A stretch of DNA of 64,000 nt from Zeus faber (Eukaryota; Chordata; Actinopteri; Zeiformes; Zeidae). Each line of letters begins with the position of its first letter. The first letter of the stretch is position 1. Made by a program: the position numbers and the translations under genes. The notes below the pieces were generated by a model that made no database searches, was not told the DNA's origin, and saw only the letters and a program-made list of their open reading frames with translations. The stretch covers positions 37,388,290-37,452,289 of the forward strand of contig OY482849.1 in NCBI GenBank assembly GCA_960531495.1, given 5' to 3'. Shown here one piece after another: positions 3,101-35,124 of this stretch.

Positions 3101-6100
3101 CTCCACGGTGTCGGTCATCATGATGCTGTGCTGCTGACCGGTGCAGTCAAGGTTTAGTGAAAATGAAGCACGTGTCTTGCACTTGGAACAAAGGGACATT
3201 TAAACCCTGTGGGACCTGTATCTCCGCCCAAAGGGGAGAAGAACCAATTCCTCCAAGAGTTGGTTGTTAGAGCCGGTCACGATCCACCACGCCTTCCAAA
3301 AAACTATTGTTATAGATATCTGTTCAAGAAGTTCAACCGTCTCAACAAGTGAGTCCTTGGTTGTAGTTGGGAAGGTTGAGTGGGAGGTTTTCCTGAAGTC
3401 GATGGCCATATCTTTAGTTTTGTGAGCATTTTACTTCAGGAAGTGGTTGTCACACCACTCTACAAAATCGTTCACAACTGGCCCACGATCGACCTCCATC
3501 CTAAAGCAGACTGATTAAAATTGTGTCGCCTGCGAACTTGAGGAGATACCTGTCAACTAGGTTACTCAGTCATTTGTATATAGAATACAATAATGGGGAC
3601 AGGACACACCCCTGGGGCGAGCCTGTGGATGAAAACAGCTTCTAGGATAGGGCATGACTGTCTGGGCGTACATGTTAAAAAGTCCCATTACCCATTTCAC
3701 CTTGCCAGCATCAATAATAAAAGTGGACAGTAGTTCGCTAGCTAACATGTTGGATTGTATTAAAAGCTGCGGAGAAATCGACAAATAAAAGCCTTGCACG
3801 AGCTGTTGCATCCTGGAGATGCTTCGACAGAAAATTAAATAAGGTAGTAGCATCCTCCATCCCTCTATTAACCCATATGCACATTGCACCCGGCCAAGCA
3901 GGCCCTGACCCTCATCAGTCAGGGTTTGTTTGACCAGTCGCTCAGGTCTTTACATTACATTACATTACATTACATTGATCAGACGCTTTTATCCAAAGCG
4001 ACTTACAATTATTCAAACAGCGACGGACGCAGCCATCAGGAGCAATTAGGGGTTAAGTGTCTTGCTCAAGGACACTACAGCATGCTAGCAGGAGGAGCCT
4101 GGGATCCAACCAGCGACCTTTGGATTACTAGACCACCAGCTCTACCGCCTGAGCTACCATCCCCTGGTCTTCCTCACTAGTGAGATCAGAGCCACAGATC
4201 TAAGGTCATTGAGCTCTTTTGGGGATTTGTTATTTGGCCAAGGATCTATCCTTTCACAGTTTCGAGACCTTGTGCTTAGTAAGTGAAAAGTTAAAAAGAT
4301 CAGTTAAAATATCACATAACTGAGCTGCACAAACTTAAGGAATTAGCCAGTGATCATGTCAGGCCCAGGTCTTAACTGCATTTATGGAACATGGATCTGA
4401 CAGAATTGCCACTGATTGTAGGCTGAAACGTAGTAGTGTAGTCACTTTACATACCCAACAGATCACTTTGCACATTTGTACAATCATGTCCATCATTAAA
4501 ACGTAAATAAAAATCATTCTGTGCATGTGCAAGCACTGAGTTTGAATCAAAGCCATCAATGGTTATTGACCTGTTATTGTTATTGTCCTAGCTCGTCAGG
4601 GCTTTCATGCCATCCCACTCTGCCTTTAGGTCTTAACCTTCACATTTCTCCTCTATTCTACCTTTATATTGGAGTTTAGCCCTCTTTATTTCATGTATGG
4701 ACTATTTTTTTAGGATTTGCCTTATCCCTGTCCCCACCACGTAGAAAGGTATTATGTTTCCTGTGCAGTACATCCTTCACTGCTTTCTTTACGTTTAGTT
4801 AGGATGACGAGTGTTTCCGATAAAGAACATAAGAGGATATCCCCTCAGCCCTCTTATCAAGATCGGGAGTAGAATTATTAAAATGATTCCAGTTTGTGCT
4901 TTCAAGGACTCCCTTGAGTTCCTCAAAAGCCCTTCCAGTCCACATCTCCGCTTCTCTGTTTAAGGAGCGGCTTGTGGGTTGGGAGAAGAAGGATAGGGTT
5001 GTGATCAGAGGAGCCGAGAGGTGGCAACGCTACGGACTTCTACGCACCTTTAACTGAACCACAACATAAGTCAATAGTTTTGTTCAGTCTGGTAGGGCAA
5101 TAAATAAACTGATAAAAGTTGCTCATTGATTTTAGGTTGCGATGATTGAAACCCCCAAGGGTGAGTCAAGGGGCATCAGGAGAGAGGGACTTGCTTTTGT
5201 GTAACCTTGTGAATAGTTGTCACTGCATTATTTGCATTGGCTTTGGGGTTTATGTACACAACAGTAACAAATATTTGGGGAAATCGACAGACAGCAGCTC
5301 AATGTCCGTGGTACACAAAGTCTCTCTGACGGTGTTTACAGCACCACTGGTGGGCATAGAGGCAGGCACCTCCCGATGTTCCCGATGGACTGGGCATTGC
5401 AAAGTAGTATCAAGAGGAGGGGTATGCGGTGGAGGTGCAGACGCTTAAGCCACTGTCTGTTTCCGCACTTCACATTTTTTATCCCATGTTTTAAAGTATT
5501 CGCAGTGACAGGAGATGTTCGCTATTAAACGCTCTTACGTAAGTAAGTCCAAGTGCGTATGTGGCTGCTGTCAATCCTCTAGACCCAGTAAAGATCCCGA
5601 GAGTACTGGATCCTGCCTGTGTGCATATGGCAAGGGACATATAAACACTAAGCCACAGCAAACAAAGTCCATGTGACAATAAAATACAGTCGCTCCATTC
5701 TAAAAAGTGAGCAACGAACAGTGCAATGACGTAGAACTTAATCAGATTGGTTGATTCTTCACTAACAACATTTAAACGGTACAAGTGTCGACCAGTGCAG
5801 TAGACCAGTGCAGTAGACCAGTGCAGTAGGCCAGTGCAGTAGGCCAGTGCAGTAGGCCAGTGCAGTAGACCAGTGCAGTAGGCCAGTGCAGTAGGCCAGT
5901 GCAGTAGGCCAGTGCAGTAGACCAGTAGTCATCAGTGCTGTGTGTGTTGCAGGTGATGTTTGGCAGTGGTGTGAACGAGGGCTCTGGCCTGCAGGGGGCG
6001 CTGCCAGTCACTGTGTTCGAGACGCTCAACAAACACTTTGGAGTTTCCTTCGAGTGCTTTGCATCTCCGCTCAACTGCTTCTTCAAGCAGTTCTGCTCTG

Positions 6101-8693: not shown

Positions 8694-9613
8694 GGCAGCA
8701 GGTGGCGCTAGACTTCACCAGCTCTTTACTGTGTACAAATTGTAAATACAACAGAGACCCAGTACAGGAAGTGTACCCAGTACAGGAACCCAGTACAGGA
8801 AGTGTACCCAGTACAGGAACTATCTGCTGGAGTTCCGTCACTGAAAGAGGACCTGAAAGACGACATCCTGTACATCTGGTAATACTCTGTAGTATGCAGT
8901 AATATTGGGTAGTATTCAGTAATACTCAGTAGTATTCAGTAATATCTGGTTATACTCTGTAGTGAGTATCCAGAGGCAGAGCTCCTTCCTTCTGATTGGT
9001 CGACAGTATGGCGGCAGCCTGAGATTGGTCAGTTTTCAGCCGCTTGCCTCCGTCCAGTCCAGGCAGAGCAGCCTGGCCACGCCCCCTCGGGCTCTGGCCC
9101 CGCCCCTCAAAACGCTGGCAGCTGATTGGTCGGCAGCCTGTACATAGTGTACAGTCTCCTTGAATTAACTGTTGAACCTTTCCATGAATTTAATTTGCTG
9201 TAATTTAACATCATTTTTCTACAGATGAAAGTTGTTTGTGTATCATACAGTTTTGTTTTAAACTAAACCAAAGTGTTAAGGATTCTATATATATATACAC
9301 AAAAATATATATAAATCTGTATCTAGTAGGTGAAAGTAGAGCGTGTATACATCCTAATGCTGACCCTGACGCAGCACAATACTCCACTTTATTTTTATAA
9401 TTCTTTGTCTCTCTTGTTGTTTTTGTGTTTGATTCTTGGATTTCAATGTGCATGATACTCTGTAAATACTGCAGTAAAACTCCAAGTACTACTGTGTTCC
9501 TCATTATTGAATGACTCCACTGGGGCGGCTGGAGCCACACCTTCCCATTGGAAAACAATGCAAATTAACACGTGTTGACAATAAAGTGGGAAAACCGGAG
9601 CTGAAAGAATAAA
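8694..9613 (+). terminator. pcif1: pcif1 3' UTR with two polyadenylation signals
   Basis: Sequence after the pcif1 stop. AATAAA occurs at 9580-9585 and 9608-9613. The UTR holds a short CCAGTACAGGAAGTGTAC repeat at 8758-8820 and an AGTAATATTGGGTAGTATTC-like repeat at 8879-8960. Confidence 0.75.
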
Positions 9614-9689
9614 GGATTAAACGACTTGGAAACGAAAGACTAAAGTCAGAATGTGAAGCGTTCAAGTGTCTTAACAAAGCGTCCGGACA

Positions 9690-9830
9690 ACGGGCAGAGC
9701 CGCCATTACTGCTGTCCACACAGCCCTTTCCAAGATGGCGGACCGTGCGGGACGCGCAGCCCGGCTCAGGTCACGCCCCCCCGGCCCCCTTCGCACATGC
9801 GCAGTACGTCGTGTTTCCGGAAAAAATCTG
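9690..9830 (+). promoter_or_regulatory. dnttip1: Probable dnttip1 promoter / 5' UTR start
   Basis: GC-rich block about 120 bp beyond the pcif1 poly(A) signals. It holds a YY1-type CCAAGATGGCGG at 9730-9741, an NRF1-like GCACATGCGCAG at 9793-9804 and an ETS-like TTTCCGG at 9814-9820, as in TATA-less housekeeping promoters. The dnttip1 ATG exon at 19041 opens on a splice acceptor, so a 5' non-coding exon must lie upstream, and this is the only promoter-like block between it and pcif1. The exact donor (candidates near 9891, 10014 and 10050) cannot be settled from sequence. Confidence 0.55.
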
Positions 9831-10090
9831 ATGAAACGACTTTCAATTCGATAGAATCTGCAGCTTTTACTGTTTTAAAACCACAACAACGGTGATTGAA
9901 AGACTTAAAAAGGACGAAAACTGCAGCTTTACCGCTTTAGAAACACGTCAACTAGTTTCACTGCTTTAAAACCATTACATCGGTACTTTTACTGTCTTCT
10001 TTCCTGGTCCCAGGTCACGGATCGGACCTGGACACCGTCGAGCAGCGTTTCAGGTTTTAAAGCCATTCCATTAAATTCTGCTGAAGAAAG
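9831..10090. other. dnttip1: Short unique stretch before the large array
   Basis: Contains CTGCAGCTTTTAC-like short repeats and several possible splice donors. Probably 5' UTR or the start of dnttip1 intron 1. Confidence 0.4.
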
Positions 10091-13000
10091 TTCCAGTTAC
10101 TGTTATATCTTACTGGTTTCCAGTTAGTGTATATCTTACTGGTTTCCAGTTACTGTTATATCTTACTGGTTTCCAGTTAGTGTATATCTTACTGGTTTCC
10201 AGTTAGTGTATATCTTACTGGTTTCCAGTTAGTGTATATCTTACTGGTTTCCAGTTAGTGTATATCTTACTGGTTTCCAGTTAGTGTATATCTTACTGGT
10301 TTCCAGTTAGTGTATATCTTACTGGTTTCCAGTTAGTGTATATCTTACTGGTTTCCAGTTAGTGTATATCTTACTGGTTTCCAGTTAGTGTATATCTTAC
10401 TGGTTTCCAGTTAGTGTATATCTTACTGGTTTCCAGTTAGTGTATATCTTACTGATTTACAGTTAGTGTATATCTTACTGGTTTCCAGTTAGTGTATATC
10501 TTACTGGTTTACAGTTAGTGTTATATCTTACTGGTTTACAGTTAGTGTATATCTTACTGGTTTCCAGTTAGTGTATATCTTACTGGTTTCCAGTTACTGT
10601 TATATCTTACTGGTTTCCAGTTAGTGTATATCTTACTGGTTTCCAGTTAGTGTATGTCTTACTGGTTTCCAGTTAGTGTATATCTTACTGGTTTCCAGTT
10701 AGTGTATATCTTACTGGTTTCCAGTTAGTGTATATCTTACTGGTTTCCAGTTAGTGTATATCTTACTGGTTTCCAGTTAGTGTATATCTTACTGGTTTCC
10801 AGTTAGTGTATATCTTACTGGTTTCCAGTTAGTGTATATCTTACTGGTTTACAGTTAGTGTATATCTTACTGGTTTCCAGTTACTGTTATATCTTACTGG
10901 TTTCCAGTTAGTGTATATCTTACTGGTTTCCAGTTAGTGTATATCTTACTGGTTTACAGTTAGTGTATATCTTACTGGTTTCCAGTTAGTGTATATCTTA
11001 CTGGTTTCCAGTTAGTGTATGTCTTACTGGTTTCCAGTTAGTGTATATCTTACTGGTTTACAGTTAGTGTATATCTTACTGGTTTCCAGTTAGTGTATAT
11101 CTTACTGGTTTACAGTTAGTGTATATCTTACTGGTTTCCAGTTACTGTTATATCTTACTGGTTTCCAGTTACTGTTATATCTTACTGGTTTCCAGTTAGT
11201 GTATATCTTACTGGTTTCCAGTTAGTGTATATCTTACTGGTTTCCAGTTAGTGTATATCTTACTGGTTTACAGTTAGTGTATATCTTACTGGTTTCCAGT
11301 TAGTGTATATCTTACTGGTTTCCAGTTAGTGTATATCTTACTGGTTTACAGTTAGTGTATATCTTACTGGTTTCCAGTTAGTGTATATCTTACTGGTTTA
11401 CAGTTAGTGTATATCTTACTGGTTTACAGTTAGTGTATATCTTACTGGTTTCCAGTTACTGTTATATCTTACTGGTTTCCAGTTAGTGTATATCTTACTG
11501 GTTTCCAGTTAGTGTATATCTTACTGGTTTACAGTTAGTGTATATCTTACTGGTTTACAGTTAGTGTATATCTTACTGGTTTCCAGTTAGTGTATGTCTT
11601 ACTGGTTTCCAGTTAGTGTATATCTTACTGGTTTACAGTTAGTGTATATCTTACTGGTTTCCAGTTAGTGTATATCTTACTGGTTTACAGTTAGTGTATA
11701 TCTTACTGGTTTCCAGTTACTGTTATATCTTACTGGTTTCCAGTTAGTGTATATCTTACTGGTTTACAGTTAGTGTATATCTTACTGGTTTCCAGTTAGT
11801 GTATATCTTACTGGTTTCCAGTTAGTGTATGTCTTACTGGTTTCCAGTTAGTGTATATCTTACTGGTTTCCAGTTAGTGTATATCTTACTGGTTTCCAGT
11901 TAGTGTATGTCTTAGTGGTTTCCAGTTAGTGTATGTCTTACTGGTTTCCAGTTAGTGTATATCTTACTGGTTTTCAGTTACTGTATATCTTTCTGGTTTC
12001 CAGTTAGTGGATGTCTTACTGGTTTCCAGTTAGTGTTTATCTTACTGGTTTCCAGTTAGTGTGTGTCTTACTGGTTTCCAGTTAGTGTATGTCTTACTGG
12101 TTTCCAGTTAGTGTATATGTTAGTGGTTTCCAGTTAGTGTATATCTTAGCGGTTTCCAGTTAGTGTATATCTTACTGGTTTCCAGTTAGTGCGTGTCTGA
12201 CTGGTTTCCAGTTAGTGTACGTCTTAGTGGTTTCCAGTTAGTGTATATCTTACTGGTTTCCAGTTAGTGTATGTCTTAGTGGTTTCCAGTTAGTGTATGT
12301 CTTAGTGGTTTCCAGTTAGTGGATGTCTTACTGGTTTCCAGTTGTGTATGTCTTAGTGGTTTCCAGTTAGTGGATGTCTTAGTGGTTTCCAGTTAGTGAA
12401 TATCTTACTGGTTTCCAGTTAGTGTATATCTTACTGGTTTCCAGTTAGTGTATATCTTAATGGTTTCCAGTTAGTGTATATCTTACTGGTTTCCAGTTAG
12501 TGTATGTCTTAGTGGTTTCCAGTTAGTGTATGTCTTACTGGTTTCCAGTTAGTGTATATCTTACTGGTTTTCAGTTACTGTATATCTTTCTGGTTTCCAG
12601 TTAGTGTATGTCTTAGTGGTTTTCAGTTAGTGGATGTCTTACTGGTTTCCAGTTAGTGTTTATCTTACTGGTTTCCAGTTAGTGTATATCTTACTGGTTT
12701 CCAGTTAGTCTATGTCTTACTGGTTTCCAGTTAGTGTGTGTCTTACTGGTTTCCAGTTAGTGTATGTCTTACTGGTTTCCAGTTAGTGTATATCTTAGTG
12801 GTTTCCAGTTAGTGTATATCTTAGCGGTTTCCAGTTAGTGTATATCTTAGTGGTTTCCAGTTAGTGGATGTCTTAGTGGTTTCCAGTTAGTGGATGTCTT
12901 AGTGGTTTCCAGTTAGTGGATGTCTTAGTGGTTTCCAGTTAGTGTATGTCTTAGTGGTTTCCAGTTGTGGATGTCTTAGTGGTTTCCAGTTAGTGGATGT

Positions 13001-16000
13001 CTTAGTGGTTTCCAGTTAGTGGATGTCTTAGTGGTTTCCAGTTAGTGGATGTCTTAGTGGTTTCCAGTTAGTGGATGTCTTAGTGGTTTCCAGTTAGTGG
13101 ATGTCTTAGTGGTTTCCAGTTAGTGGATGTCTTACTGGTTTCCAGTTGTGGATGTCTTAGTGGTTTCCAGTTAGTGGATGTCTTAGTGGTTTCCAGTTAG
13201 TGGATGTCTTAGTGGTTTCCAGTTAGTGGATGTCTTAGTGGTTTCCAGTTAGTGGATGTCTTAGTGGTTTCCAGTTAGTGGATGTCTTAGTGGTTTCCAG
13301 TTAGTGTATATCTTACTGGTTTCCAGTTAGTGTATATCTTACTGGTTTCCAGTTAGTGTATATCTTACTGGTTTCCAGTTAGTGTATATCTTACTGGTTT
13401 CCAGTTAGTGTATATCTTACTGGTTTCCAGTTAGTGTATATCTTACTGGTTTCCAGTTAGTGTATATCTTACTGGTTTCCAGTTAGTGTATATCTTACTG
13501 ATTTACAGTTAGTGTATATCTTACTGGTTTCCAGTTAGTGTATATCTTACTGGTTTACAGTTAGTGTTATATCTTACTGGTTTACAGTTAGTGTATATCT
13601 TACTGGTTTCCAGTTAGTGTATATCTTACTGGTTTCCAGTTAGTGTATATCTTACTGGTTTCCAGTTAGTGTATGTCTTACTGGTTTACAGTTAGTGTAT
13701 ATCTTACTGGTTTACAGTTAGTGTATGTCTTACTGGTTTACAGTTAGTGTATATCTTACTGGTTTACAGTTAGTGTATATCTTACTGGTTTCCAGTTAGT
13801 GTACGTCTTACTGGTTTCCAGTTAGTGTACATCTTAGTGGTTTCCAGTTAGTGTATATCTTAGCGGTTTCCAGTTAGTGTATATCTTAGCGGTTTCCAGT
13901 TAGTGTATGTCTTACTGGTTTCCAGTTAGTGTGTGTCTTACTGGTTTCCAGTTAGTGTATGTCTTACTGGTTTCCAGTTAGTGTATGTCTTACTGGTTTC
14001 CAGTTAGTGTATATCTTAGTGGTTTCCAGTTAGTGTATGTCTTAGTGGTTTCCAGTTAGTGTATGTCTTAATGGTTTCCAGTTAGTGGATGTCTTACTGG
14101 TTTCCAGTTGTGTATGTCTTAGTGGTTTCCAGTTAGTGGATGTCTTAGTGGTTTCCAGTTAGTGAATATCTTACTGGTTTCCAGTTAGTGTATATCTTAA
14201 TGGTTTCCAGTTAGTGTATATCTTACTGGTTTCCAGTTAGTGTATGTCTTAGTGGTTTCCAGTTAGTGTATGTCTTACTGGTTTCCAGTTAGTGTATATC
14301 TTACTGGTTTCCAGTTAGTGTATATCTTTCTGGTTTCCAGTTAGTGTATGTCTTAGTGGTTTCCAGTTAGTGGATGTCTTACTGGTTTCCAGTTAGTGTT
14401 TATCTTACTGGTTTCCAGTTAGTGTATATCTTACTGGTTTCCAGTTAGTCTATGTCTTACTGGTTTCCAGTTAGTGTGTGTCTTACTGGTTTCCAGTTAG
14501 TGTATATCTTAGTGGTTTCCAGTTAGTGTATATCTTAGTGGTTTCCAGTTAGTGTATATCTTACTGGTTTCCAGTTAGTGTATGTCTTAGTGGTTTCCAG
14601 TTAGTGTATATCCTAGCGGTTTCCAGTTAGTGTATATCTTACTGGTTTCCAGTTAGTGTGTGTCTGACTGGTTTCCAGTTAGTGTATGTCTTACTGGTTT
14701 CCAGTTAGTGTATATCTTAGCGGTTTCCAGTTAGTGTATATCTTACTGGTTTCCAGTTAGTGTGTGTCTGACTGGTTTCCAGTTAGTGGATGTCTTAGTG
14801 GTTTCCAGTTAGTGGATGTCTTAGTGGTTTCCAGTTAGTGGATGTCTTACTGGTTTCCAGTTGTGTATGTCTTAGTGGTTTCCAGTTAGTGGATGTCTTA
14901 GTGGTTTCCAGTTAGTGGATGTCTTAGTGGTTTCCAGTTAGTGGATGTCTTAGTGGTTTCCAGTTAGTGGATGTCTTAGTGGTTTCCAGTTAGTGGATGT
15001 CTTAGTGGTTTCCAGTTAGTGTATATCTTACTGGTTTCCAGTTAGTCTATGTCTTACTGGTTTCCAGTTAGTGTGTGTCTTACTGGTTTCCAGTTAGTGT
15101 ATGTCTTACTGGTTTCCAGTTAGTGTATATCTTAGTGGTTTCCAGTTAGTGTATATCTTAGTGGTTTCCAGTTAGTGTATATCTTACTGGTTTCCAGTTA
15201 GTGTATGTCTTAGTGGTTTCCAGTTAGTGTATATCCTAGCGGTTTCCAGTTAGTGTATATCTTAGCGGTTTCCAGTTAGTGTATATCTTACTGGTTTCCA
15301 GTTAGTGTGTGTCTGACTGGTTTCCAGTTAGTGGATGTCTTAGTGGTTTCCAGTTAGTGGATGTCTTAGTGGTTTCCAGTTAGTGGATGTCTTACTGGTT
15401 TCCAGTTGTGTATGTCTTAGTGGTTTCCAGTTAGTGGATGTCTTAGTGGTTTCCAGTTAGTGGATGTCTTAGTGGTTTCCAGTTAGTGGATGTCTTAGTG
15501 GTTTCCAGTTAGTGGATGTCTTAGTGGTTTCCAGTTAGTGGATGTCTTAGTGGTTTCCAGTTAGTGGATGTCTTAGTGGTTTCCAGTTAGTGGATGTCTT
15601 AGTGGTTTCCAGTTAGTGGATGTCTTAGTGGTTTCCAGTTAGTGGATGTCTTACTGGTTTCCAGTTAGTGTATATCTTACTTGTTTCCAGTTAGTGTATG
15701 TCTTACTGGTTTCCAGTTAGTCTATGTCTTACTGGTTTCCAGTTAGTGTATATCTTACTGGTTTCCAGTTAGTGTATGTCTTACTGGTTTCCAGTTAGTG
15801 TACATCTTAGCGGTTTCCAGTTAGTGTATATCTTAGCGGTTTCCAGTTAGTGTATGTCTTACTGGTTTCCAGTTAGTGTGTGTCTTACTGGTTTCCAGTT
15901 AGTGTATGTCTTACTGGTTTCCAGTTAGTGTATATCTTAGTGGTTTCCAGTTAGTGTATATCTTAGTGGTTTCCAGTTAGTGTATATCTTAGCGGTTTCC

Positions 16001-19000
16001 AGTTAGTGTATATCTTACTGGTTTCCAGTTAGTGTATATCTTAGCGGTTTCCAGTTAGTGTATATCTTACTGGTTTCCAGTTAGTGTGTGTCTGACTGGT
16101 TTCCAGTTAGTGTATGTCTTAGTGGTTTCCAGTTAGTGTATGTCTTAGTGGTTCCAGTTAGTTTATGTCTTAGTGGTTTCCAGTTAGTGTATGTCTTACT
16201 GGTTTCCAGTTAGTGTATATCTTACTGGTTTCCAGTTAGTGTATGTCTTACTGGTTTCCAGTTAGTGTACATCTTAGCGGTTTCCAGTTAGTGTATATCT
16301 TAGCGGTTTCCAGTTAGTGTATATCTTAGCGGTTTCCAGTTAGTGTATGTCTTACTGGTTTCCAGTTAGTGTGTGTCTTACTGGTTTCCAGTTAGTGTAT
16401 GTCTTACTGGTTTCCAGTTAGTGTATATCTTAGTGGTTTCCAGTTAGTGTATATCTTAGCGGTTTCCAGTTAGTTTATGTCTTAGTGGTTTCCAGTTAGT
16501 TTATGTCTTAGTGGTTTCCAGTTAGTTTATGTCTTAGTGGTTTCCAGTTAGTGTATATCTTAGCGGTTTCCAGTTAGTGTATATCTTACTGGTTTCCAGT
16601 TAGTGTATATCGTACTGGTTTCCAGTTAGTGTATGTCTTAGTGGTTTCCAGTTAGTGTATATCTTGCTGGTTTCCAGTTAGTGTATGTCTTAGTGGTTTC
16701 CAGTTAGTGTATATCTTACTGGTTTACAGTTAGTGTATATCTTACTGGTTTCCAGTTAGTGTGTGTCTGACTGGGTTCCAGTTAGTGTATATCGTACTGG
16801 TTTCCAGTTAGTGGATGTCTTAGTGGTTTCCAGTTAGTGTATATCTTACTGGTTTCCAGTTAGTGTATGTCTTAGTGGTTTCCAGTTAGTGTGTGTCTTA
16901 CTGGTTTCCAGTTAGTGTGTGTCTTACTGGTTTCCAGTTAGTGTATATCTTAGTGGTTTCCAGTTAGTGTGTCTGACTGGTTTCCAGTTAGTGTTTGTCT
17001 TACTGGTTTCCAGTTAGTGTGTGTCTTACTGGTTTAGAGTTAGTGTATGTCTTAGTGGTTTCCAGTTAGTGTATATCTTAGTGGTTTCCAGTTAGTGTAT
17101 ATCTTAGCGGTTTCCAGTTAGTGCGTGTCTGACTGGTTTCCAGTTAGTGTATGTCTTAGTGGTTTCCAGTTAGTGTATATCTTACTGGTTTCCAGTTAGT
17201 GTATATCTTACTGGTTTCCAGTTAGTGTATATCTTACTGGTTTCCAGTTAGTGTGTGTCTGACTGGTTTCCAGTTAGTGTGTGTCTGACTGCTTTCCAGT
17301 TAGTGTATATCTTACTGGTTTCCAGTTTGTGTATATCTTACTGGTTTCCAGTTAGTGTGTGTCTTACTGGTTTCCAGTTAGTGTATATATTACCGGTTTC
17401 CAGTTAGTGTATATCTTACCGGTTTCCAGTTAGTGTATATCTTAGTGGTTTCCAGTTAGTGTGTATCTTACTGGTTTCCAGTTAGTGTATATATTAGTGG
17501 TTTCCAGTTAGTGTATATCTTACTGGTTTCCAGTTTGTGTGTGTCTGACTGGTTTCCAGTTAGTGTATGTCTTACTGGTTTCCAGTTAGTGTGTGACTTA
17601 CTGGTTTCCAGTTAGTGTATGTCTTACTGGTTTCCAGTTAGTGTATATCTTACTGGTTTCCAGTTAGTGTAGATCTTACTGGTTTCCAGTTAGTGTAGAT
17701 CTTACTGGTTTTCAGTTAGTGTAGATCTTACTGGTTTCCAGTTAGTGTAGATCTTACTGGTTTCCAGTTAGTGTAGATCTTACTGGTTTCCAGTTAGTGT
17801 AGATCTTACTGGTTTCCAGTTAGTGTATGTCTTAGTGGTTTCCAGTTAGTGTATGTCTTAGTGGTTTCCAGTTAGTGTATATCTTATTGGTTTCCAGTAA
17901 ACTATGTCTTAGTGGTTTCCAGTTAGTGTATGTCTTAGTGGTTTCCAGTTAGTGTGTGTCTTAGTGGTTTCCAGTTAGTGTGTGTCTTAGTGGTTTCCAG
18001 TTAGTCTGTGTCTTACTGGTTTCCAGTTAGTGTGTGTCTTACTGGTTTCCAGTTAGTGTGTGTCTTACTGGTTTCCAGTTATTGTGTGTCTTACTGGTTT
18101 CCAGTTAGTGTGTGTCTTACTGGTTTCCAGTTAGTGTGTGTCTTACTGGTTTCCAGTTAGTGTATATCTTAGTGGTTTCCAGTTAGTGGATGTCTTAGTG
18201 GTTTCCAGTTAGTGGATGTCTTAGTGGTTTCCAGTTAGTGTATATCTTACTGGTTTCCAGTTAGTGGATGTCTTAGTGGTTTCCAGTTAGTGGATGTCTT
18301 AGTGGTTTCCAGTTAGTGTATATCTTAGTGGTTTCCAGTTAGTGGATGTCTTAGTGGTTTCCAGTTAGTGTGTGTCTTACTGGTTTCCAGTTAGTGTAGA
18401 TCTTACTGGTTTCCAGTTAGTGTAGATCTTACTGGTTTCCAGTTAGTGTAGATCTTACTGGTTTCCAGTTAGTGTATGTCTTAGTGGTTTCCAGTTAGTG
18501 TATGTCTTAGTGGTTTCCAGTTAGTGTATATCTTATTGGTTTCCAGTAAACTATGTCTTAGTGGTTTCCAGTTAGTGTATGTCTTAGTGGTTTCCAGTTA
18601 GTGTGTGTCTTAGTGGTTTCCAGTTAGTGTGTGTCTTAGTGGTTTCCAGTTAGTCTGTGTCTTACTGGTTTCCAGTTAGTGTGTGTCTTACTGGTTTCCA
18701 GTTAGTGTGTGTCTTACTGGTTTCCAGTTATTGTGTGTCTTACTGGTTTCCAGTTAGTGTGTGTCTTACTGGTTTCCAGTTAGTGTGTGTCTTACTGGTT
18801 TCCAGTTAGTGTATATCTTAGTGGTTTCCAGTTAGTGGATGTCTTAGTGGTTTCCAGTTAGTGTATATCTTACTGGTTTCCAGTTAGTGGATGTCTTAGT
18901 GGTTTCCAGTTAGTGGATGTCTTAGTGGTTTCCAGTTAGTGTATATCTTACTGGTTTCCAGTTAGTGGATGTCTTAGTGGTTTCCAGTTAGTGTGTGTCT

Positions 19001-19037
19001 TACTGGTTTCCAGTTAGTGTATGTCTTACTGGTTTCT
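10091..19037. repeat. Nine-kilobase minisatellite of a 26-bp unit in dnttip1 intron 1
   Basis: About 340 head-to-tail copies with hardly a break. The unit starts CTTACTGGTTTCCAGTTAGT and ends GTATAT; variants differ at TAT/TGT/GGA and C/G sites, and a few are 25 or 27 bp. There is higher-order structure: the rare ACTGATTTACAG variant at 10451 recurs at 13497 in the same unit context (about 3.05 kb apart), and AGTAAACTATG at 17896 recurs at 18545 (about 0.65 kb). Every unit carries TTTCCAG, a 3' splice-site-like core. The last unit reads TTTCTAG and serves as the acceptor of the dnttip1 start exon. Confidence 0.98.
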
Positions 19038-19040
19038 AGC

Positions 19041-22000
19041 ATGGGAGCGCACCGGGCCTGGGAGCAGCCTTCTGGGAGTCACCAGGTAAACACTGTTTTT
19101 TTTATTTAACAGATGATATGATTATATACTACAATTGTACTACTAGTAATATACTACTATAATACACACCAGGATAGTTCACAGTCCGTCTCTCTCCATC
19201 AGAACCCTTGGAACCTGATGATAAAGCACCGTCAGGTTCAGCGCCGAGGTCGTCGCTCGCACACGGCGTTGAGGTGAATATCCTCCAGGCCACCTGTGGA
19301 CATGTATACCTGTGGACATGTATACCTGTGGACTTGTATACCTGTGGACATGTATACCTGTGTACATGTATACCTGTGGACATGTATACCTGTGGACATG
19401 TATACCTGTGGACTTGTATACCTGTGGACATGTATACCTGTGTACATGTACAGCTTCACAGACCCCCTGGTCTCCATGGACCTGCTGAGGGCCGTGCTGC
19501 AGCCCAGCTTCAACCAGGACATCATGGAGGTTTTCAGGAAGTACCAGAAGGTGAGGGTGCACCTAGACCCTGTGGGCAGGAAGTTCCTCCTGGGACACAA
19601 GGGTACTGGCAACTAGGTTGTTAGGAACAAGGGTACTGGGAACTTGGGTGCTAGGAACTAGGGTGCTGGGAACTCGGGTGCTACGAACTAGGGTATTGGG
19701 AAATAGGGTGCTTGGAACTAGGTTGCTAGGAACTTGGGTACTGGGAACTAGGGTTCTAAAAACTAGGATACTGGGAACTAGGGTGCTAGGAACTAGTTCA
19801 TTATGTTGCTAGGGCGTTAGTTACTAGGTCATTAGGTTACTAAGGTGTTAGTTACTCAGTCATCAGGTTTGTAGGGTGCTAGTTACCTGATCATAAGGTT
19901 TCTAGGTTGGTAGTTGCTCGGTCATTGGGTTACTAGCGTGGTAGTTACAAGGTCACTCGGGTGCTAGTTGCTAGGTCATTAGGTTACTCGGGTGCTAGTT
20001 ACAAGGGTGTTAGTAAGCAGGTTATTAGGTTACTATGATGTTAGTTACTAGTGTGGTTTTGACTAGGTCATTAGGTAACTAGGATGCTTGTAACTAGGTC
20101 ATTCGGTTACTAGGGTGCTTGTTACTAGGTCATTTGGTTATAAGGGTGCTAGTTACTAGGTCACGCAGTCCCAGGGTGCTAGTTGCAAGGTCATTAGGTT
20201 ACAAGAGTGGTAGTTACTAGGTCATTAGGTCACAAGGGTGCTATTTACAAGGTCATTATGTTTTTGTGGTGGTAGTTACTAGGTCATTAGGTCACAAGGG
20301 TGCTATTTACTAGATCATTATGTTACTACGGTGGTAGTTACTAGTTCACTAGGTTACTCAGGTGTAATTTACTAGGCCATTAGGTGCCTATGATGCTAGT
20401 TAGTAGTGTGAAGGTTATTAGGTCATTAGGTTACTGGGCTGCTTGTTACAATGTCATTAGGTTACTAGGGTGCTTGTTACTAGGTCATTTGGTTACTATG
20501 GTGCTAGCTACTAGGTAATTTGGTTACTAGGGTGCTAGTGGCTAGGTCATTGTGTTACAAGGGTGGAATTTACTAGGTCATTAGGTTACTAGGTTGCTAG
20601 TTATGAGGGTGTTAGTTACTAGGTCATTAGGTGCCTATGCTGCTATTTACTAGTGTGCTAGTTATTAGGTCATTAGGTTAATAGGGTGCTTGCTACGAGG
20701 TCATTCGGTTAATAGGGTGCTCGTTATTAGGTCACTAGGGTGCTAGTTACTAGGTCAATAGGTTAATAGGGTGCTTGTTACTCGGCCATTAGGTTACTAG
20801 GGTGCTTGTTACTAGGGTGCTTGCTACTAGGTCATCGGGTTAATTGAATGCTTGTTACTAGGTAATTAGGTTTCTAGGGTGCTAGTTACTAGGTCATTAG
20901 GTTACCAGGGTGCTAGTTACGAGGTCATTAGGTTACTAGGGTGCTAGTTACGAGGTCATTAGGTTACTAGGGTGCTATTGACTATAAACTGGTATTTCAT
21001 TGTCCATGTTTTGCAATCTTTGTTCCAAGCTGCCAACTCAGCTGTTCAGATTAAAAGCAGCAACTCTCCAGGATCAGAAACCAAATGGAGCTTCCTGTTT
21101 CTCCCTCAGTTTTTCGACAAAGCGGCGGAGAACGTGAAGGAGAACGTTGGAGATGAGATCCCCACAGAGCAGCTCGTCCGGGAAGCGTACCGCAGTGCTC
21201 TGGAGCATGTGAGGCTTACAGGCCTAACTAGTCCTGGCTCATTAGTCCCAGCTTACTAGTCTCGACTAACTAGCCATAACAAACTAGTCCCGGCTAACTA
21301 GTCACAGGTAACAAGTCACGGTTAACAAGTCATGGCTAACTAGCCATGGATAACTCGTCACAGTTAACTAGTCAAGACTAACTTGCCACAGCTAACTAGC
21401 CACGGCTAACTATTATTGGCTAATTACTCATGGCTAACTAGTTACAGTTATCTAGCCATGGTTAACTAGTCAAGCCTAACTAGCCACAGCTATCTAGTAA
21501 CCAGCTACCCAACCGCCCCACCCCAGGCCAAGCAGATGTTTCCTGAAGTGAAGCCGCGACCCGCTCCAGACGCTAACGCTAAGGTAGCTAACACTCCTCC
21601 CTCTGTCCCTCTCCTCCCCCCTCTTTTCTCTCTCCTCCTCCTCCTCCCTCTCTTCCTCTCCTCCTCCTCCCTCTGTCCCTCTCCTGCCCCCTCTTTTCTC
21701 TCCTCCTCCTCCTCCCTCTGTCCCTCTTCTCCTCCCTCTTTTCCTCTTTTCCTTCCTCCTCCCTTTTTCCCTCTCCTCCTCCCTCTCTTCCTCTCCTCCT
21801 CCTCCCTCTGTCCCTCTCCTGCCCCCTCTTTTCTCTCTCCTCCTCCTCCTCCCTCTCTTCCTCTCCTCCTCCTCCCTCTGTCCCTCTCCTGCCCCCTCTT
21901 TTCTCTCCTCCTCCTCCTCCCTCTGTCCCTCTTCTCCTCCCTCTTTTCCTCTTTTCCTTCCTCCTCCCTTTTTCCCTCTCCTCCTCCCTCTCTTCCTCTC

Positions 22001-25000
22001 CTCCTCCTCCCTCTGTCCCTCTCCTGCCCCCTCTTTTCTCTCTCCTCCTCCTCCTCCCTCTTTTCCTCTCCTCCTCCTTCCTCTGTCCCTCTCCTCCCCC
22101 CTCTTTTCTCTCTCCTCCTCCTCCTCCTTCTTTTCCTCTCCTCCTCCTCCCTCTGTCCCTCTCCTGCCCCCTCTTTTCTCTCTCCTCCTCCTCCTCCCTC
22201 TTTTCCTCTGCTCCTCCTTCCTCTGTTCCTTTCCTACTCCTCCCTCTGTTTCTCTCCCTCTCCTGCTCCGTCTGTTCCTCTTCTCTTGCTCCCTCTGTTC
22301 CTCTCCTCCTCATTCCTCTGTTCCTCCTCATTCCTCTGTTCCTCTCCTCCTCATTCCTCTGTTCCTCCTCTCCTCATCCCTCTGTTCCTCCTCTCCTGCT
22401 CCCTCTGTTCTTCTCCTCATCCCTTTTCCCTCCTCCCTCTCCTCCTCCTCATCCCTCTTTTCCTTTCCCTCTCCTCCTCCCTCTGTTCCCCGTCTCCTCC
22501 TCCCCCTGTTCCTCTTCTCCTGCTCTCTTTGTTCCTTCTCCCCTCATCCCTCTGTTCCCTCCTCCCTGTCCTCCTCCCTCTTTTCCTCTTCTCTTCCTCT
22601 GTTCCTCCTCTCCTCCCTCTGTTCCTCTTCTCCTCCTCCCTCTGTTTCTCTTATCCTGCTCTCTCTGTTCCTCACCTTAAACCTCAACCCTCTCCTCCTC
22701 CCTCTGTTCCTTCTCTCCTCATCCCTCTGTTCCTTCTCTCCTCCTCCCTCTGTTCCTTCTCTCCTCCTCCCTCTGTTCCTCCTCTCCTCCCTCTGTTCCT
22801 CTTCTCCTCCTCCCTCTGTTTCTCTTATCCTGCTCTCTCTGTTCTTCACCTTAAACCTCAACCCTCTCCTCCTCCCTCTGTTCCTTCTCTCCTCATCCCT
22901 CTGTTCCTTCTCTCCTCCTCCCTCTGTTCCTTCTCTCCTCCTCCCTCTGTTCCTCCTCTCCTCATCCCTCTGTTCCATCGTTCCAGAGGTCCAGACAGAA
23001 CGAGGAGGACTCCAGTCGAGGGAGCCCCATCCTCAAGAAGGTACCTTAGATCCTTTGACCCTTGACCTTTAGCGCTGCTACCATGTTCACCTCTTACGTG
23101 TTTGTGTGTGTTGCAGAGGAAGGGCCGACCCTGTGCCCCATCAGGCTCCGATCGACCTTTGACCTTTGCAGGGTGAGCGTAACCAGCTGTTTACGATATA
23201 TGTTTAAGTAGTTTACTATATATTCTATATATGTAGTGACTATATATACTATATATGTACTTTACTATATGTACTATATACAGTATGTAGTTTACTGTAT
23301 ATACTATATATGTAGTTTCCTATATATACTATATATGTAGTTTACTATATACACTATATTTGTAGTTTCCTATATATACTATATAAGTCGTTAACTATGT
23401 ATACTATATATGTGACCCACCACAGCAAAAGCCGCCATCTCACGCATTTCTAAAATGGCCAGGAGCAGCCACCTAAGTTGAAAAAACCTTTCTTGAAGGA
23501 AAATGCGACTTTTCCAAATTCGTGTTCCTTTGTGGGTTATTTTATCTCTCAACGTATTTTCAAAACCGAGTTTGATTTATAAATAGTATAAAAATGTTAA
23601 ACCGTGGAGTTAAATATTCCTGTTAGATGACATGGGGAAACACAGTTCCCTTACTGAGACGCAGAACAGTGCTGAACAACGCAGATTGATGGTTTCCTTT
23701 AAAGCGAGCGTCCAGGTGATGATCATTCATCCATATTCCATGTGATGTCAAGTCACAATATGAAACCGTTTTGATAGAGTTCAACCTTTAAATTGTACTA
23801 CTTTTACACACACACGGAGACATCATTGTGGAGTGGGCGTGTACAAACGTCAACGTCACTTACGTAAACAAGGCGAGGCTCCGGTTTCACTTGTCTGTGA
23901 AAATGTTCTTCTCTGTATCGTTATGGATTACGTGAAGCGGGTGGAGGAAGCTCTGAATCATATCTCAGACCTTGATTCAAGATTCAAGATTCAAGAGGTT
24001 TATTCGTCACATACATATACATACTTTCATACATTTATGCAGTGAAATGTAATGCAACGCACCCGGTGATAACACACAATATGTCCTAGGAAAATTTTCT
24101 TTCTAATGGCTCAATGAGGACCCCTGGAGAGGTCAGCATTGACAGTTCTAATGGCTTGCAGGAAAAAACTCCGTCTCAGTCTCTCTGTTCTCGCTGTGTG
24201 ACTGCTGAGGCGCTTGCCTGACCACAGCAGCTGAAACAGTCCGTTGTGTCCCCCCCTCCATCTGTAGCTCCACGGTCTCTCTGTACGCTCGTTTAGCGTC
24301 CTTCACCGCCCTCCACAGATTGTAAGACGCCACTTTGTAATTGTCCATATTTCTGGATCCAAGACTGTCGTTGTAAGCGGCTGTACGCGCATTCAGAGCG
24401 CAGCGGATGGATTTATCAACCCACGGTTTCTGGTTTGGAAATATCCGAACTTTCACCGTGGGAATGATGCTATCTGCTAGCGTAGTCACAAAACATACTG
24501 CCACCTCCGTAAACTCGCTGACGTCACTTGAACTTGTTTGGAACATGTCCCAGTCTACATCAGTCAGAGCGTCCTGAAGCGCAGCCTCTGATTGGTCCGT
24601 CCACCGCTTCACTTCCCTCGTCACCACCAGTTCTCGCGCGATCAGAGGCCTGTAAACGGGAACCAGCGAGATCGTGGCGTGGTCAGATTTCCCAAAAGCA
24701 GGGAGCGAGACGGTCTTGTATCCGTTCTTGTACGGTGTGTAATAATGGTCCAGAGTTCTGTCTCCCCTGGTGGCACACGTGATGTGTTTTGGTGGAAATT
24801 TAGCAGAACTTTTTTAAGGTTCGCCCTGTTAAAGTCCCCAGTCACCACCACAGCCGCGTCGGGATGTTTGTTTTTAAATCCGCACAACACATCGTACAGG
24901 TCCCACAGTGCTGTGTCGGTATCTGCTTGCGGTGGGATATAAACGGCGGTGATGATGACCGTGCTAAATTCCCGGGGGAGATAAAATGGACGGCATAGGA

Positions 25001-28000
25001 TGGTCAGCTGTTCCAGGTTCGGCGAGCAGGAGTGGGAAAGAAACTTTGTGTTGTTGGCGTTACACCAGCGGTTGTTTACCATGAGGCAGACGCCTTCACC
25101 TTTGGATTTCCACGACTCCCCCGTTCTGTCGCCGCGGAACACGGAGAAGGCCTCGGCTGGACGTATGGCTTCATCCGGCACCAGTGGGTTCAACTATGTT
25201 TCCATCAGACAGAGGACGCAACGGTTCCTCGTGTCTCGCTGGAATTGAATCCTCGCTCGAAGTTCATCCATCTTGTTCTCCAGGAACTGGAATTAAGCAA
25301 GAAGGATGCTTGGCAGAGGTGGACGGTAAGGTTGCGTCCTCTGACCTCGTTTACCTCGGTGCTTCCTCCGTGGGCCCGCTCGTGGAACAGCGGCTCCATT
25401 TTTGTTGTTGTTGTTGAGCGTCTTCCCGCGTAGGATTTCTGCCAGCCACTCTGCTTCCACGGATAAAAAGTCCCAGAGTTGTTCGTTTAGGGAAATGTTG
25501 TCGTATGAGGTAACTGCCGATGCTTTTTTTGCGTACATTATGATAAAAACTGAAAAAAATACTAAAATGTGCAAAAGTCAACCGGAGCGCCGGCGCAGGC
25601 GACTGCAGGGGGCGGCACCACAATCGCCTAATCTTAACCTTAATCTGACCAGTGCAATAGATCCAAGTCAGTGTTAGCAGCACGTACTGGACTTCATTTT
25701 CCGCGATGATAGTCAGTTCTCCGACAGTGACGCAGAGAACGTCAACGTCGCTGAACCTGATATTACTCCGGACTTGGAGAACATTTCAAACAGAGACCGA
25801 TGATTCCGTTACAATGGAAGAAGTTGATGACGTGATGAAGTCTGTTGAGGTTGGTGAGAGATTTTCAGATTTTCTAAGACTCATATTATTGATAGACTCT
25901 AAATTTTGTTGTGTTGTCCGTACTTTTAAAACTCCAAAATAATTCCACTTTTATAAAATATGTATATTCTTACTGTTGAATAAAAGTTTTTTTTAAAAGT
26001 AGTATGTTAAGTAGCCATGAGGCTTTATTTGTCCGCCAACCCCATTTGCATTCTTGGAGGTGAATGAAGCTGGTGTGAGTAAAACTTTGGAGGCAATTAT
26101 CTCAGAAACACGGTTTGCCACACCTTTGTCATTAACAAGTCATATCTTTAAAAATATTTGCTTGATTTGCACAAGTGACACCTTGTTTGGAAGCTCTGGA
26201 AAAAAAGTCGGAAGCCGCTAAATGACCCTAAAGTACGCGGTGGGTCACATATGTTGTTTACTATATATACTATATATGTAGTTTACTTTATATACTATAT
26301 ATTTAGTTTACGATATATACAATAGATGTAGTTTACTATATATAATTTATACTTTGTTAACAATATATATACGATATATGTAGTTTACTATATATATACT
26401 ATATGTCATTTACTATATAGTATATTACTATATATTTAGTTTGATGTATTGTATGTACTATATATGTACTTTAATATATGAACTATATACAGTATGTAGT
26501 TTACTGTATATACTATAAATGTAGTTTACTATATATGTTTATATGTAGTTTGCTATATATACTATATATGTATTTTACTATACTGTATATACAACAATTT
26601 TTATTTATATTATATTTTAATAATGTAATAACAGTGTCATGATATTAATGTAATAACAGGAAATGACAGGGAATTTGGATAAAAAAATATTCACATGATC
26701 TAAGAGAAAGTTAAATGGCTGAAGACGTCTGGATTAAGGTCAATATTGAGTCAGTAGATCAATATCTTTATTGTCATTGTGCAAGCACAACAACATTGCA
26801 ATTGCATCAACCTGAAATGGTGCATTTGTATTCACTTCACACATATTTACAAAGAATTAATAGACACGAATGAGATTATAAAGTATAAATACAATTAGCA
26901 ATAAAATACAACTAACAACAAGGATGGAAAAAAGCATCAGCCGCAAAAGTAGAGTCAAGGTGTGGTGACAGAGAGGGAGCGATGTGTGTTGAATGAATTG
27001 TGTGTTGAATTATGTGTATTGTGTGTTGAATGATCTGTGTGTTGAATGATGTGTATTGTGTGTTGAATGATCTGTGTGTTGAATGATGTGTGTGTTGTTT
27101 GTTGAATGATGTGTGTGTTGTATGTTGAATGATGTGTGTGTGTGTGTTGAATGATGTGTGTGTTGTATGTTGAATGATGTGTGTGTGTGTGTTGAATGAT
27201 GTGTGTGTTGTTTGTTGAATGATGTGTGTGTTGTATGTTGAATGATGTGTGTGTGTGTGTTGAATGATGTGTGTGTTGTTTGTTGAATGATGTGTGTGTT
27301 GTATGTTGAATGATGTGTGTGTGTGTGTTGAATGATGTGTGTGTTGTATGTTGAATGATGTGTGTGTGTGTGTTGAATGGTTTTTGTTGGGTATGTGTTG
27401 AGTGTGTGTTGGATGTGTGTTGGCTTGGCATTATAGGAGTGACGATTCTTATTGAAATGAGCGTTTAATTGGAGCTTGGAAATCACCAGCTGGTCTGGGT
27501 TCTCGCTGTATTGGTTGTGGTGCTGTTTATCACACTGTGGTTATATTGAGCTCAGTCGACAAACATCCTCTGTGTTCAGGGCAGTGAATGAGCTGCGACC
27601 ACACCCGGTGGCTGCTTCTGGACTGTGCCTTGCCTTATCGTTTCTGGCGTTATCATATCATGTGTGAAAATGTAGCTGCATGTGTAAATAGTGGAAGTCA
27701 GTTGCGGTGCCAGGAAAGTTATCCCAGTAATTTACCGGGAACTATGTGTAAATATGGCTCGACAATGGCATCGCCATTTAAATCGGGAAATGGAATCTTG
27801 ACCTTAAAATTAAAGTAAAATGGAATTGAGCCCGATTTGGCAGTTGGGCGTGCAGAGTGCATGGAGGAGTGGGCTCCGCCCTGCGGGGCGTGGTGATCTG
27901 GGTGATGGTGCAGGATGTGTCCTTGCCCAGTCTGACAGTCTGGGGGCAGTTGATGAAGACATCTAGTATCCAGTTGCATATGGAGGGAGTCAGTCCTCGT

Positions 28001-28516
28001 GGGTGGAGTTTGTCAACCAGCTGGGTGGGTGTGATGGTGTTAGAGCATCCTGTCTTTCCAGATGAGCGATCAGCTGGGCGGGGTCTTGGATGTGGTGAGG
28101 GTGAGCCTCATCGTCATGGGGACAGGTTACCACAGGATTTTTGGGAACGGGCACAATGGTGGTGGATTTGAGACATGCAGGGATTATGCATAAGTACACC
28201 ATCAGACCCGGCTGCTTTCCTGGTGTGGGTGGTGCACCTCGTGGAGTGCCTCCGCCAGGTGGGCAGTGTGGGCTCGTCTATGCTGTGTGTTATTTTAACT
28301 TTCATTTATTGAAGCTTCATGTTCTGTTCCCAGTTCCAAACCCAAAACCTCAGAGCCCATCAGGAGAGAAGGACCCAAGGTGAGATAAATATCTATAAAC
28401 TATCCTATATAACCTGTAATATACAAGCTATCATATATAACCTGTAATATAGAATCTATGATATATAACCTTTAAGACAGAATCTATGATATATAACCTG
28501 CAATATAAAATCTATG

Positions 28517-28586
<70 letters not shown>

Positions 28587-31500
28587 TGTAATATATGATC
28601 TGATAGATAAACTATAATGTATAATCTATTATATATAAAACCTCTAATATATAATGTATGATATATAACCTTCAATATATAATCTATGATATATAACCTG
28701 TAATATATAAACTATAATACAAAATCTACGACATATATCCTGTAATATTTAATGTATGATATGGAAACTATAATAATCTATGATATATAACCTGTAATAT
28801 ATAATCTATGATGTTTAAATGATAATATATAATCTATAATATATGATCTGTAATATATAAACTATAATATATAATCTGATATTTAAACTATAATGTATGA
28901 TGTATAAACTACAATATATAATGTATGATGTATAAACTCTAATATATAATCTGATATATAACCTTTCATATATAATCTATGATAAATTACCCGTAATATA
29001 TAAACTATAATACAAAATCTATGAGATATATATCCCTTAATATATAATGTATGACATATAACCTTCAATATATAATGTATGATATATAACCTTCAATATA
29101 TAACTTATTATATATAACCTTCAATATATAACGTATGAGCTATAAACTATAATATATAATGTATGATATATAACCTTCAATATATAATGTATGATATATA
29201 ACCTTTAATATATAACGTATGATATATAACCTTCAATATATAATGTATGCGCTATAAACTATAATATATAACGTATGATATATAACCTTCAATATATAAC
29301 GTATGAGCTAGAAACTATAATATATAACGTATGATATATAGCCTTCAATATATAACGTATGATATATAACCTTTAATATATAACAAATGATATATTCAAG
29401 ATTCAAGATTTTTTTATTTGTCACATACATATACATACTTTCATACATATATGCAGTGAAATGTAATGCAACGCACCCGGTGATAACACACAATATGTCC
29501 TAGGAAAAAAAATAAATAAAAGTAAAAAATTCCTTTCTAATAGACCGACTTACTGACTCCAAAAACGTAATACAGTAAGTTGAATACTTATAGAATAAGA
29601 TAAAAATATATAGAATAAAATACAATAAAAATAAAATGGAATAGATAGAAGGAATATGGCTATGTATGTACAGATATGTGCATTTAAAGTGGCATGTGAG
29701 TTAAAGTGGCATGTGAATGTGAATAGTGTGAGGTAGTGTTTGGGATAATACAGCACAGTATACAACAGTACGGCGCAGCAATACGGCATCACGAACAACC
29801 CTGAACAGTGACACAGTATGCGGTACAGTATGCTACATACAGTACAGTAGGTAGTGGAGCCTAGTGCATGGCTCAGTTAGGACCCCTGGTGAGGTCAGCG
29901 TTGACAGTTCTAATGGCTTGAGGGAAGAAACTCCGTCTCAGTCTCTCTGTTCTCGCTGTGTGACTGCGGAGGCGCTTGCCTGACCGCAGCAGCTGGAACA
30001 GTCCGTTGTTGGGGTGATGAGGATCCTTCATGATCCTGCAGCTCTGCTGCTACACCTCCTGGTGTATAACTCCTGCAAGGGGGGGAGGGTAGTTCCAGTG
30101 GTACGTTCAGCTGAACGCACCACCCTCTGCAGGGCCCGCCTGTCCTGGGCAGTACAGTTCAATATATAACGTATGAGCTATAAACTATAATATATAACGT
30201 ATGATATATAACCTTCAACATATAATGTATAATATATAACCTTCAATATATAACGTATGATATATAACCTTCAATGTATAATGTATGATATATAACCTTC
30301 AACATATAATGTATAATATATAACCTTCAATATATAACGTATGATATATAACCTTCAATGTATAATGTATGATATATAACCTTCAACATATAATGTATAA
30401 TATATAACCTTCAATATATAACGTATGATATATAACCTTCAATATATAACGTATGATATATAACCTTCAATATATAATGTATGATATATAACCTTCAATG
30501 TATAATGTATGATATATAACCTTCAATATATAACGTATGATATATAACCTTCAATATATAATGTATGATATATAACCTTCAATGTATAATGTATGATATA
30601 TAACCTTCAATGTATAATGTATGATATATAACCTTCAATTTATAATGTATGATATATAACCTTCAATGTATAATGTATGATATATAACCTTCAATTTATA
30701 ATGTATGATATATAACCTTCAATGTATAATGTATGATCTATAAACTATAATATATAATGTATGATATATAACCTTCAATGTATAATGTATGATATATAAC
30801 CTTCAATGTATAATGTATGATCTATAAACTATAATATATAATGTATGATATATAACCTTTAATATATAACGTATGATATATAACCTTCAATGTATAATGT
30901 ATGATCTATAAACTATAATATATAATGTATGATATATAACCTTCAATATATAATGTATGATATATAACCTTCAATGTATAATGTATGATATATAACCTTC
31001 AATTTATAATGTATGATATATAACCTTCAATTTATAATGTATGATCTATAAACTATAATATATAATGTATGATATATAACCTTCAATATATAATGTATGA
31101 TATATAACCTTCAATATATAATGTATGATATATAACCTTCAATATATAACGTATGATATATAACCTTCAATATATAATGTATGATATATAACCTTCAATA
31201 TATAACGTATGATATATAACCTTCAATGTATAATGTATGATATATAACCTTCAATTTATAATGTATGATCTATAAACTATAATATATAATGTATGATATA
31301 TAACCTTCAATATATAATGTATGATATATAACCTTCAATATATAACGTATGATATATAACCTTCAATATATAATGTATGATATATAACCTTCAATATATA
31401 ACGTATGATATATAACCTTCAATATATAACGTATGATATATAACCTTCAATATATAATGTATGAGCTATAAACTATAATATATATAACGTATGATATATA

Positions 31501-35092: not shown

Positions 35093-35124
<32 letters not shown>

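Follow-up and report, generated by a model that had tools for sequence, protein, structure and literature searches.

Minisatellites carrying splice signals have been described beside exons in several genes, and here we compare with them a 26-bp array that adjoins the start exon of dnttip1 in the fish Zeus faber. The array lies within a 64,000-nucleotide stretch of contig OY482849.1 (assembly GCA_960531495.1, positions 37,388,290 to 37,452,289, forward strand), which we call the window and number from its first letter. This array is a real, unusually long acceptor-bearing minisatellite and an extreme case of a known phenomenon. The reading we favor, with a probability of about 0.6, is that it fills a leader intron of dnttip1 and that its last unit would provide the 3′ splice site for the start exon.

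In human ABCA7, intron 18 holds a variable number tandem repeat (VNTR), termed a subtelomeric VNTR (PMC7608644), with a 25-bp unit, a donor in each unit, and alleles reaching 9.7 kb; retention of one unit is given as about 2% independently of array length, while skipping of exon 19 increases with length (PMC5954066). Like it, the dnttip1 array adjoins an exon, has a splice-site dinucleotide per unit, and is built of units of nearly equal size (25 and 26 bp); the site-per-unit pattern of the ABCA7 type appears here as 341 acceptors of the form TTT[ACT][CT]AG, in a position that is presumably intronic. The ABCA7 sites are donors in a coding intron with measured effects on RNA, whereas those of dnttip1 are predicted acceptors in a probable leader. 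By analogy, the dnttip1 array would work as ABCA7 does, with acceptors replacing donors.

The mirage minisatellites of amphioxus, found in Adh3 and the globin genes BflGb6 and BflGb9, place repeats, many with AG/GT signals, at intron-exon boundaries and have been proposed as sources of new introns; reverse transcription polymerase chain reaction (RT-PCR) suggested regular splicing despite them (PMC3087553). The dnttip1 array likewise sets tandem repeats with putative splice signals at a probable intron-exon boundary. It differs in scale, with about 345 units of 26 bp against 6 and 3 units of 150-160 bp in BflGb6, whose repeats contain the 3′ end of the intron (PMC3087553), and it is not a mirage, because mirage units span an exon-intron boundary and include exon sequence, which the dnttip1 unit lacks; the longest piece of exon 1 within the array is 6 nt.

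Intron 1 of myostatin-2 in Sparus aurata carries a length-variable repeated block, and in the two-copy allele a predicted acceptor near the 5′ end of the intron outscores the real one (PMC3045353). That case shares with dnttip1 a fish first intron and a predicted repeat-borne acceptor scoring above the real one, but its block comes in one or two copies of ~150 bp and stands far from the real acceptor. Human subtelomeres are VNTR-rich, and minisatellites are concentrated toward chromosome ends and in the genes located there, as around dnttip1; the top enrichment reported is for GC-rich repeats, whereas the dnttip1 unit is AT-rich (PMC7608644). Among the literature matches listed, none describes a dnttip1 array, which is no proof of its absence from print. 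A 1995 paper by Cuin and Porter reportedly describes, in its title, a minisatellite with multiple splice donors in the interferon-induced gene 6-16 (G1P3/IFI6); both are minisatellites with splice sites, donors there and acceptors here.

The 26-bp array and its junction with exon 1

Three features make up the junction.

10091 to 19039, + strand: 26-bp minisatellite of about 345 units, consensus TTAGTGTATATCTTACTGGTTTCCAG, placed by Tandem Repeats Finder and by splitting into units
19014 to 19039, + strand: terminal unit and candidate 3′ splice site for the start exon, ending in TTTCTAG and holding an out-of-frame ATG at 19021-19023
19040 to 19085, + strand: first coding exon of dnttip1, with ATG at 19041, MGAHRAWEQPSGSHQ, and donor GTAAAC at 19086

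Tandem Repeats Finder placed the 26-bp array at 10091-19036, with 344.1 copies, 93% matches, 0% indels, and a score of 14141. Wrap-around alignment over 10091-19046, in which row 1 is a partial unit and the final row is exon sequence, gave 346 rows (324 of length 26 bp, 59 distinct), the commonest being TTAGTGTATATCTTACTGGTTTCCAG (83 rows) and then TTAGTGGATGTCTTAGTGGTTTCCAG (42 rows). With head-to-tail units inside the range of about 10-100 bp, and with variants among them, the array is a minisatellite by the usual definition. A 33-base pattern consisting of one unit and its boundary, allowed at most 3 mismatches, matched 316 times in the 803-Mb genome, and all 316 matches fall inside the window; the same search gave 0 matches in 100 shuffles. 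The array reported beside the dnttip1 start exon is thus genuine and not a product of chance, and no second locus with the 26-bp unit was found in the genome at that tolerance.

The makeup of the units partly bears out the earlier note. It had given TTTCCAG to every upstream unit, but this heptamer occurs in 312, with TTTACAG in 24 and TTTTCAG in 4. The branch-site-like CTTACTG stretch that it also assigned to each unit holds for the 197 units with CTTACTGG and not for the 100 with CTTAGTGG or the 16 with CTTAGCGG, two variants that disrupt the pattern. Its observation that the final unit has changed to TTTCTAG was accurate, as this is the sole TTTCTAG of the array (19033-19039); a single base, C19040, and not three, then separates it from the ATG at 19041-19043. 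The AG is kept in 345 of the 346 rows, the remaining one being exon sequence. Other columns of the unit are almost equally constant, and we therefore did not take this constancy to indicate selection.

Runs of 18, 13, and 12 units recur in identical order, compared with a longest run of 6 in 100 shuffles, and therefore support internal block duplication. Of the two growth mechanisms considered, unequal exchange and replication slippage, the former is the likely route, the block duplications being the evidence cited for it. The mean pairwise distance between units is 0.63-0.85 across the first 60 units and 1.5-2.6 beyond, a pattern consistent with recent growth at the left and an older end toward the exon, without proving that the array arose at the acceptor. 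No seed of the unit was found in the flanks, where local alignment did not surpass Markov controls (left, P = 0.575; right, P = 0.935). Assemblies frequently collapse or expand long arrays, and the array length or the junction might be suspected on that account; such an artefact is extremely improbable here, given the ordered change of unit variants along the array and a contig 38 Mb long.

A proposed leader intron and the choice among its acceptors

Upstream of the array lie the following features (a slash marks a splice junction here and below).

9450 to 10100, no strand assigned: promoter-like, CpG-rich interval that separates the end of pcif1 from the array, the probable dnttip1 promoter and first noncoding exon
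9892 to 9893, + strand: best candidate 5′ splice site (ACG/GTGATT), the top score among the 29 GTs listed in 9640-10125, of putative use

Windows of 300 nt starting at 9451-9801 hold 13-24 CpG, with observed/expected (o/e) ratios of 0.81-1.29; the ratio is 0.16-0.59 in 150-nt windows starting at 8700-9400 and 0.33 around dnttip1 exon 1. The stretch 9450-10100 occurs at a single place in the genome. It includes, at 9792-9803, a site resembling TGCGCATGCGCA (2 mismatches) and an exact CAAGATGGCGG at 9731-9741; 27 of 100 shuffles also match CAAGATGGCGG, which alone is therefore not significant as promoter evidence. Because pcif1 ends upstream, the CpG-rich stretch is probably the promoter of dnttip1, and the array would then be a leader intron. 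A leader intron is the best reading for four reasons: the CpG-rich stretch, the place of pcif1 upstream, the 123 ATGs of the array that an unspliced leader would include, and the CpG-poor surroundings of exon 1.

We propose that a minisatellite near the chromosome end grew between the CpG-rich promoter and the start exon of dnttip1, and that it would now constitute nearly the whole of a ~9-kb intron in the 5′ untranslated region. Its last unit would act as the 3′ splice site (TTTCTAG/C-ATG), and the 340 upstream units would compete with it as acceptors of comparable strength. With the donor lying 46 nt downstream, exon definition would favor the acceptors closest to the exon, and the choice of any acceptor upstream would bring in the ATG at 19021, yielding mRNAs that may be translated inefficiently and exposed to nonsense-mediated decay.

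Splice sites were scored with approximate vertebrate weights, motifs and branch points being read by general rules, and were set against a yardstick of 20 acceptors and 18 donors deduced within the window. The terminal acceptor scored 2.07, above 5 of the 20 yardstick acceptors, and 7.4% of the 2956 AGs outside the array reach that value. The 312 TTTCCAG sites average 2.53, so the terminal site, which the earlier note called the only acceptor in place, does not earn that description by strength; the hundreds of near-identical decoys it announced are right in number, at 340 of 341 TTT[ACT][CT]AG sites. Exon 1 has an average donor at 19086 (3.6, with 9 of the 18 yardstick donors lower), and 12 further unit acceptors lie no more than 360 nt from it.

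The terminal acceptor stands out by its effect on translation, not by splice strength. Leaders running from each of the 341 unit acceptors (TTT[ACT][CT]AG, a set separate from the 341 CAGTT sites that were scored) were joined to the placed exons. For 340 of them the leader contains at least one upstream ATG with an out-of-frame reading frame running past the true start, and the terminal acceptor is the sole one of the 341 that gives a leader without an overlapping upstream open reading frame (uORF). With the acceptor at 19013, the uORF ends within exon 2, ahead of further junctions, and would therefore invite decay.

The similar scores of the 340 unit acceptors would also suit broad use of the array, producing leaders that differ by multiples of 26 nt, and the 25-bp VNTR of human ABCA7, with a donor per unit and ~2% one-unit retention, offers a precedent (PMC5954066). 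We consider such broad use quite improbable, since every such leader carries the overlapping out-of-frame uORF, ABCA7 retention is low and unchanged with array length (PMC5954066), the RT-PCR of amphioxus mirage genes suggested regular splicing (PMC3087553), and exon definition should favor the last units.

Several points weigh against a leader intron ending in the terminal unit. Within the array, 201 of the 341 CAGTT sites equal or exceed the score of the terminal acceptor. The terminal unit places its branch-like A just 11 nt from the AG, short by the usual branch-point rules. The next such A, at 19002, is 37 nt distant, and two AGs, at 19012 and 19016, intervene; because an AG 19-23 nt upstream is also present at four other dnttip1 acceptors (introns 1, 3, 4, and 7), the intervening AGs do not exclude the site. 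The uORF contrast hangs on the ATG at 19021, common to all 340 alternatives, and so amounts to one fact, not 340. Windows equally CpG-rich occur at the polr2j-ube2c starts and also, with no promoter in sight, in sequence resembling a long interspersed element (LINE) at 24151-25701; CpG content, not being specific within the window, was rejected as promoter proof, and the stretch locates a promoter only in combination with gene order. The candidate donor at 9892 is modest, with a score of 2.3 and 6 of the 18 yardstick donors lower. Finally, human DNTTIP1 has its start codon in the first exon and is not known to have an upstream intron, and a leader intron is for that reason not known to be ancestral.

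The human gene structure and the failure to find a strong donor upstream of the array (best 2.3) would both fit a gene without a leader intron, in which transcription starts in the last unit or at exon 1, the array is nontranscribed or promoter-proximal, and TTTCTAG is its frayed end; the array-exon junction alone does not require splicing. We regard this as unlikely, because the surroundings of exon 1 are CpG-poor compared with 9450-10100 and because avoidance of the ATG at 19021-19023 would confine the start site to 19022-19040. The leader could instead hide a first coding exon, running from an ATGGCGG at ~9735 to a donor at 9770 (CAG/GTCACG) and staying in frame to 19040, for a longer N terminus. 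Its frame (ATG GCG GAC ... CTC AG + C ATG GGA) was read by eye. Such an exon is very unlikely, as the donor at 9770 scores 0.31, with 1 of the 18 yardstick donors lower, an in-frame join is expected one time in three, and the human protein begins MGA, matching the ATG at 19041.

If the leader intron exists and its terminal unit is used, ~340 near-identical tandem 3′ splice sites compete in one gene, which would also show how intron arrays growing close to chromosome ends can capture splice signals, a process already proposed in amphioxus. Through a built-in readout of 26-nt steps, with the uORF on or off, the roles of distance and exon definition in acceptor choice could be measured at a natural locus. 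A bolder extension, which we hold to be distinctly doubtful, is that the minisatellite created a new leader intron in a gene that had none upstream, by expanding in the 5′ untranslated or promoter-proximal region, displacing the promoter to a distance of 9 kb from the start codon, and supplying the acceptor itself. One-unit slips would then be a translational off-switch, since each upstream acceptor brings an overlapping uORF, and array length or variant order could tune DNTTIP1 output.

Arrays in other introns and the contig end

Arrays are not peculiar to the start exon, contrary to what the earlier account had implied. We tallied arrays of period at least 7 in 19 introns, with a simulation for the distances of array ends; the test omits the leader intron, polr2j intron 1, the pcif1 introns before 5952, and the first ube2c introns, whose boundaries are uncertain or not placed. 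Arrays are present in 13 of the 19 introns and make up 63% of their bases. In dnttip1, 8 of the 12 other introns contain arrays, and 7 of the 12 consist to 87-99% of unrelated minisatellites (19274-37904).

The distance from array end to acceptor is 3 nt in intron 2, 6 nt in intron 10, 10 nt in introns 5 and 9, 19 nt in introns 4 and 8, 125 nt in intron 3, and 935 nt in intron 7. An array reaches to within 20 nt of the acceptor in 6 of the 13 introns, compared with a simulation mean of 4.06 (P = 0.10); array-filled introns give about that anyway, so this nearness is unremarkable and no excess is claimed. For donors the corresponding count is 7 of 13, against 4.04 in simulation (P = 0.016). The leader array alone supplies the AG from within its unit, in register with the exon; 5 of the 6 other acceptor-near units have none, intron 4 being the exception. 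That acceptor-near units avoid AG, which is absent from 5 of 7 (P = 0.085), is not claimed. In the 100 nt upstream of the acceptor, there are no AGs in introns 2, 5, 8, 9, and 10, and there are 4-9 in the other eight, the leader included. A GT dinucleotide run at 37880-37904 ends a few bases from the acceptor of dnttip1 exon 12.

A true mirage does occur in ube2c. At 43560-43913, an exon end with its donor (CAGTCCCTGCTGGGAG/GTAACC) is present seven times, including the real one, at 52-bp spacing, and in the copies after the first, CTTCCAG precedes the exon piece, so that this 52-bp array has both acceptor-like and donor signals. Another ube2c intron, of 109 nt (45839-45947), contains an array of 23-bp units that begins 5 nt into the intron.

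The window spans 37.39-37.45 Mb of the 37.98-Mb contig, which puts it 0.53-0.60 Mb short of the contig end; repeat density was sampled on this contig alone. Minisatellites occupy 49% of the window versus a mean of ~2% (0-5.8%) over 18 10-kb stretches at 1-35 Mb. N made up 2.0-5.0 kb in four of these stretches and 0.6 kb in a fifth and was treated as nonrepeat. The minisatellite share is 16% at 36 Mb and 30% at 37 Mb; in smaller samples it was 23%, 28%, 37%, 0%, and 21% at 36.5, 37.3, 37.6, 37.8, and 37.96 Mb. The repeat zone is patchy and differs between the two contig ends, given the 0% at 37.8 Mb and a share of 0.9% in the 1-Mb stretch. At the opposite contig end, 4-kb samples were 96% minisatellite at 0.1 Mb and 63% at 0.5 Mb. 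The last 2 kb of the contig includes 15 TTAGGG within 250 nt; no clean telomere tract was found at either contig tip, so we infer that the contig end is a chromosome end. The array accordingly sits, as subtelomeric minisatellites do, in a repeat-rich zone near a presumed chromosome end. In zebrafish spermatocytes, recombination mostly initiates near telomeres (PMC8033029).

The dnttip1 gene model and its neighbors

Beyond exon 1, the gene continues as follows.

19203 to 38250, + strand: the other 12 exons of dnttip1, with further minisatellites in 8 of the 12 introns and the stop before 38250, the end taken for the last exon

Joined from 19041, the 13 placed exons form an open frame of 300 amino acids to a stop codon. 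Exon boundaries were deduced from frames and homology, the end of exon 7 being the least sure. Query residues 15-142, essentially exons 2-6, match human DNTTIP1 (PDB 9r4i_C, E = 6.6e-42), and the first 14 residues, from exon 1, are unaligned in that match. The exon 4 frame matches the Pfam DNTTIP1 dimerisation domain, and downstream exons were matched by tblastn with the human sequence. The MGA...EQP of exon 1 presumably echoes the human DNTTIP1 start, and we take the protein to be a subunit of the histone-deacetylase complex MiDAC. A genome search with residues 1-142 returned 4 matches, every one an exon of the dnttip1 locus, and the first half of the gene is thus single copy. No retrocopy, which could reveal a spliced leader, was found with residues 1-142, residues 143-300 lying outside the search.

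Upstream on the + strand, pcif1 was identified by Pfam PCIF1_WW in 2 of the 3 frames given and by a further exon in tblastn; its last frame closes after 8690. Two mobile-element frames lie on the − strand: a LINE-like, 571-amino-acid stop-to-stop frame with RVT_1 and ALKBH8_N at 1487-3199, and a frame at 47838-48281 that matches the DDE_3 transposase family.

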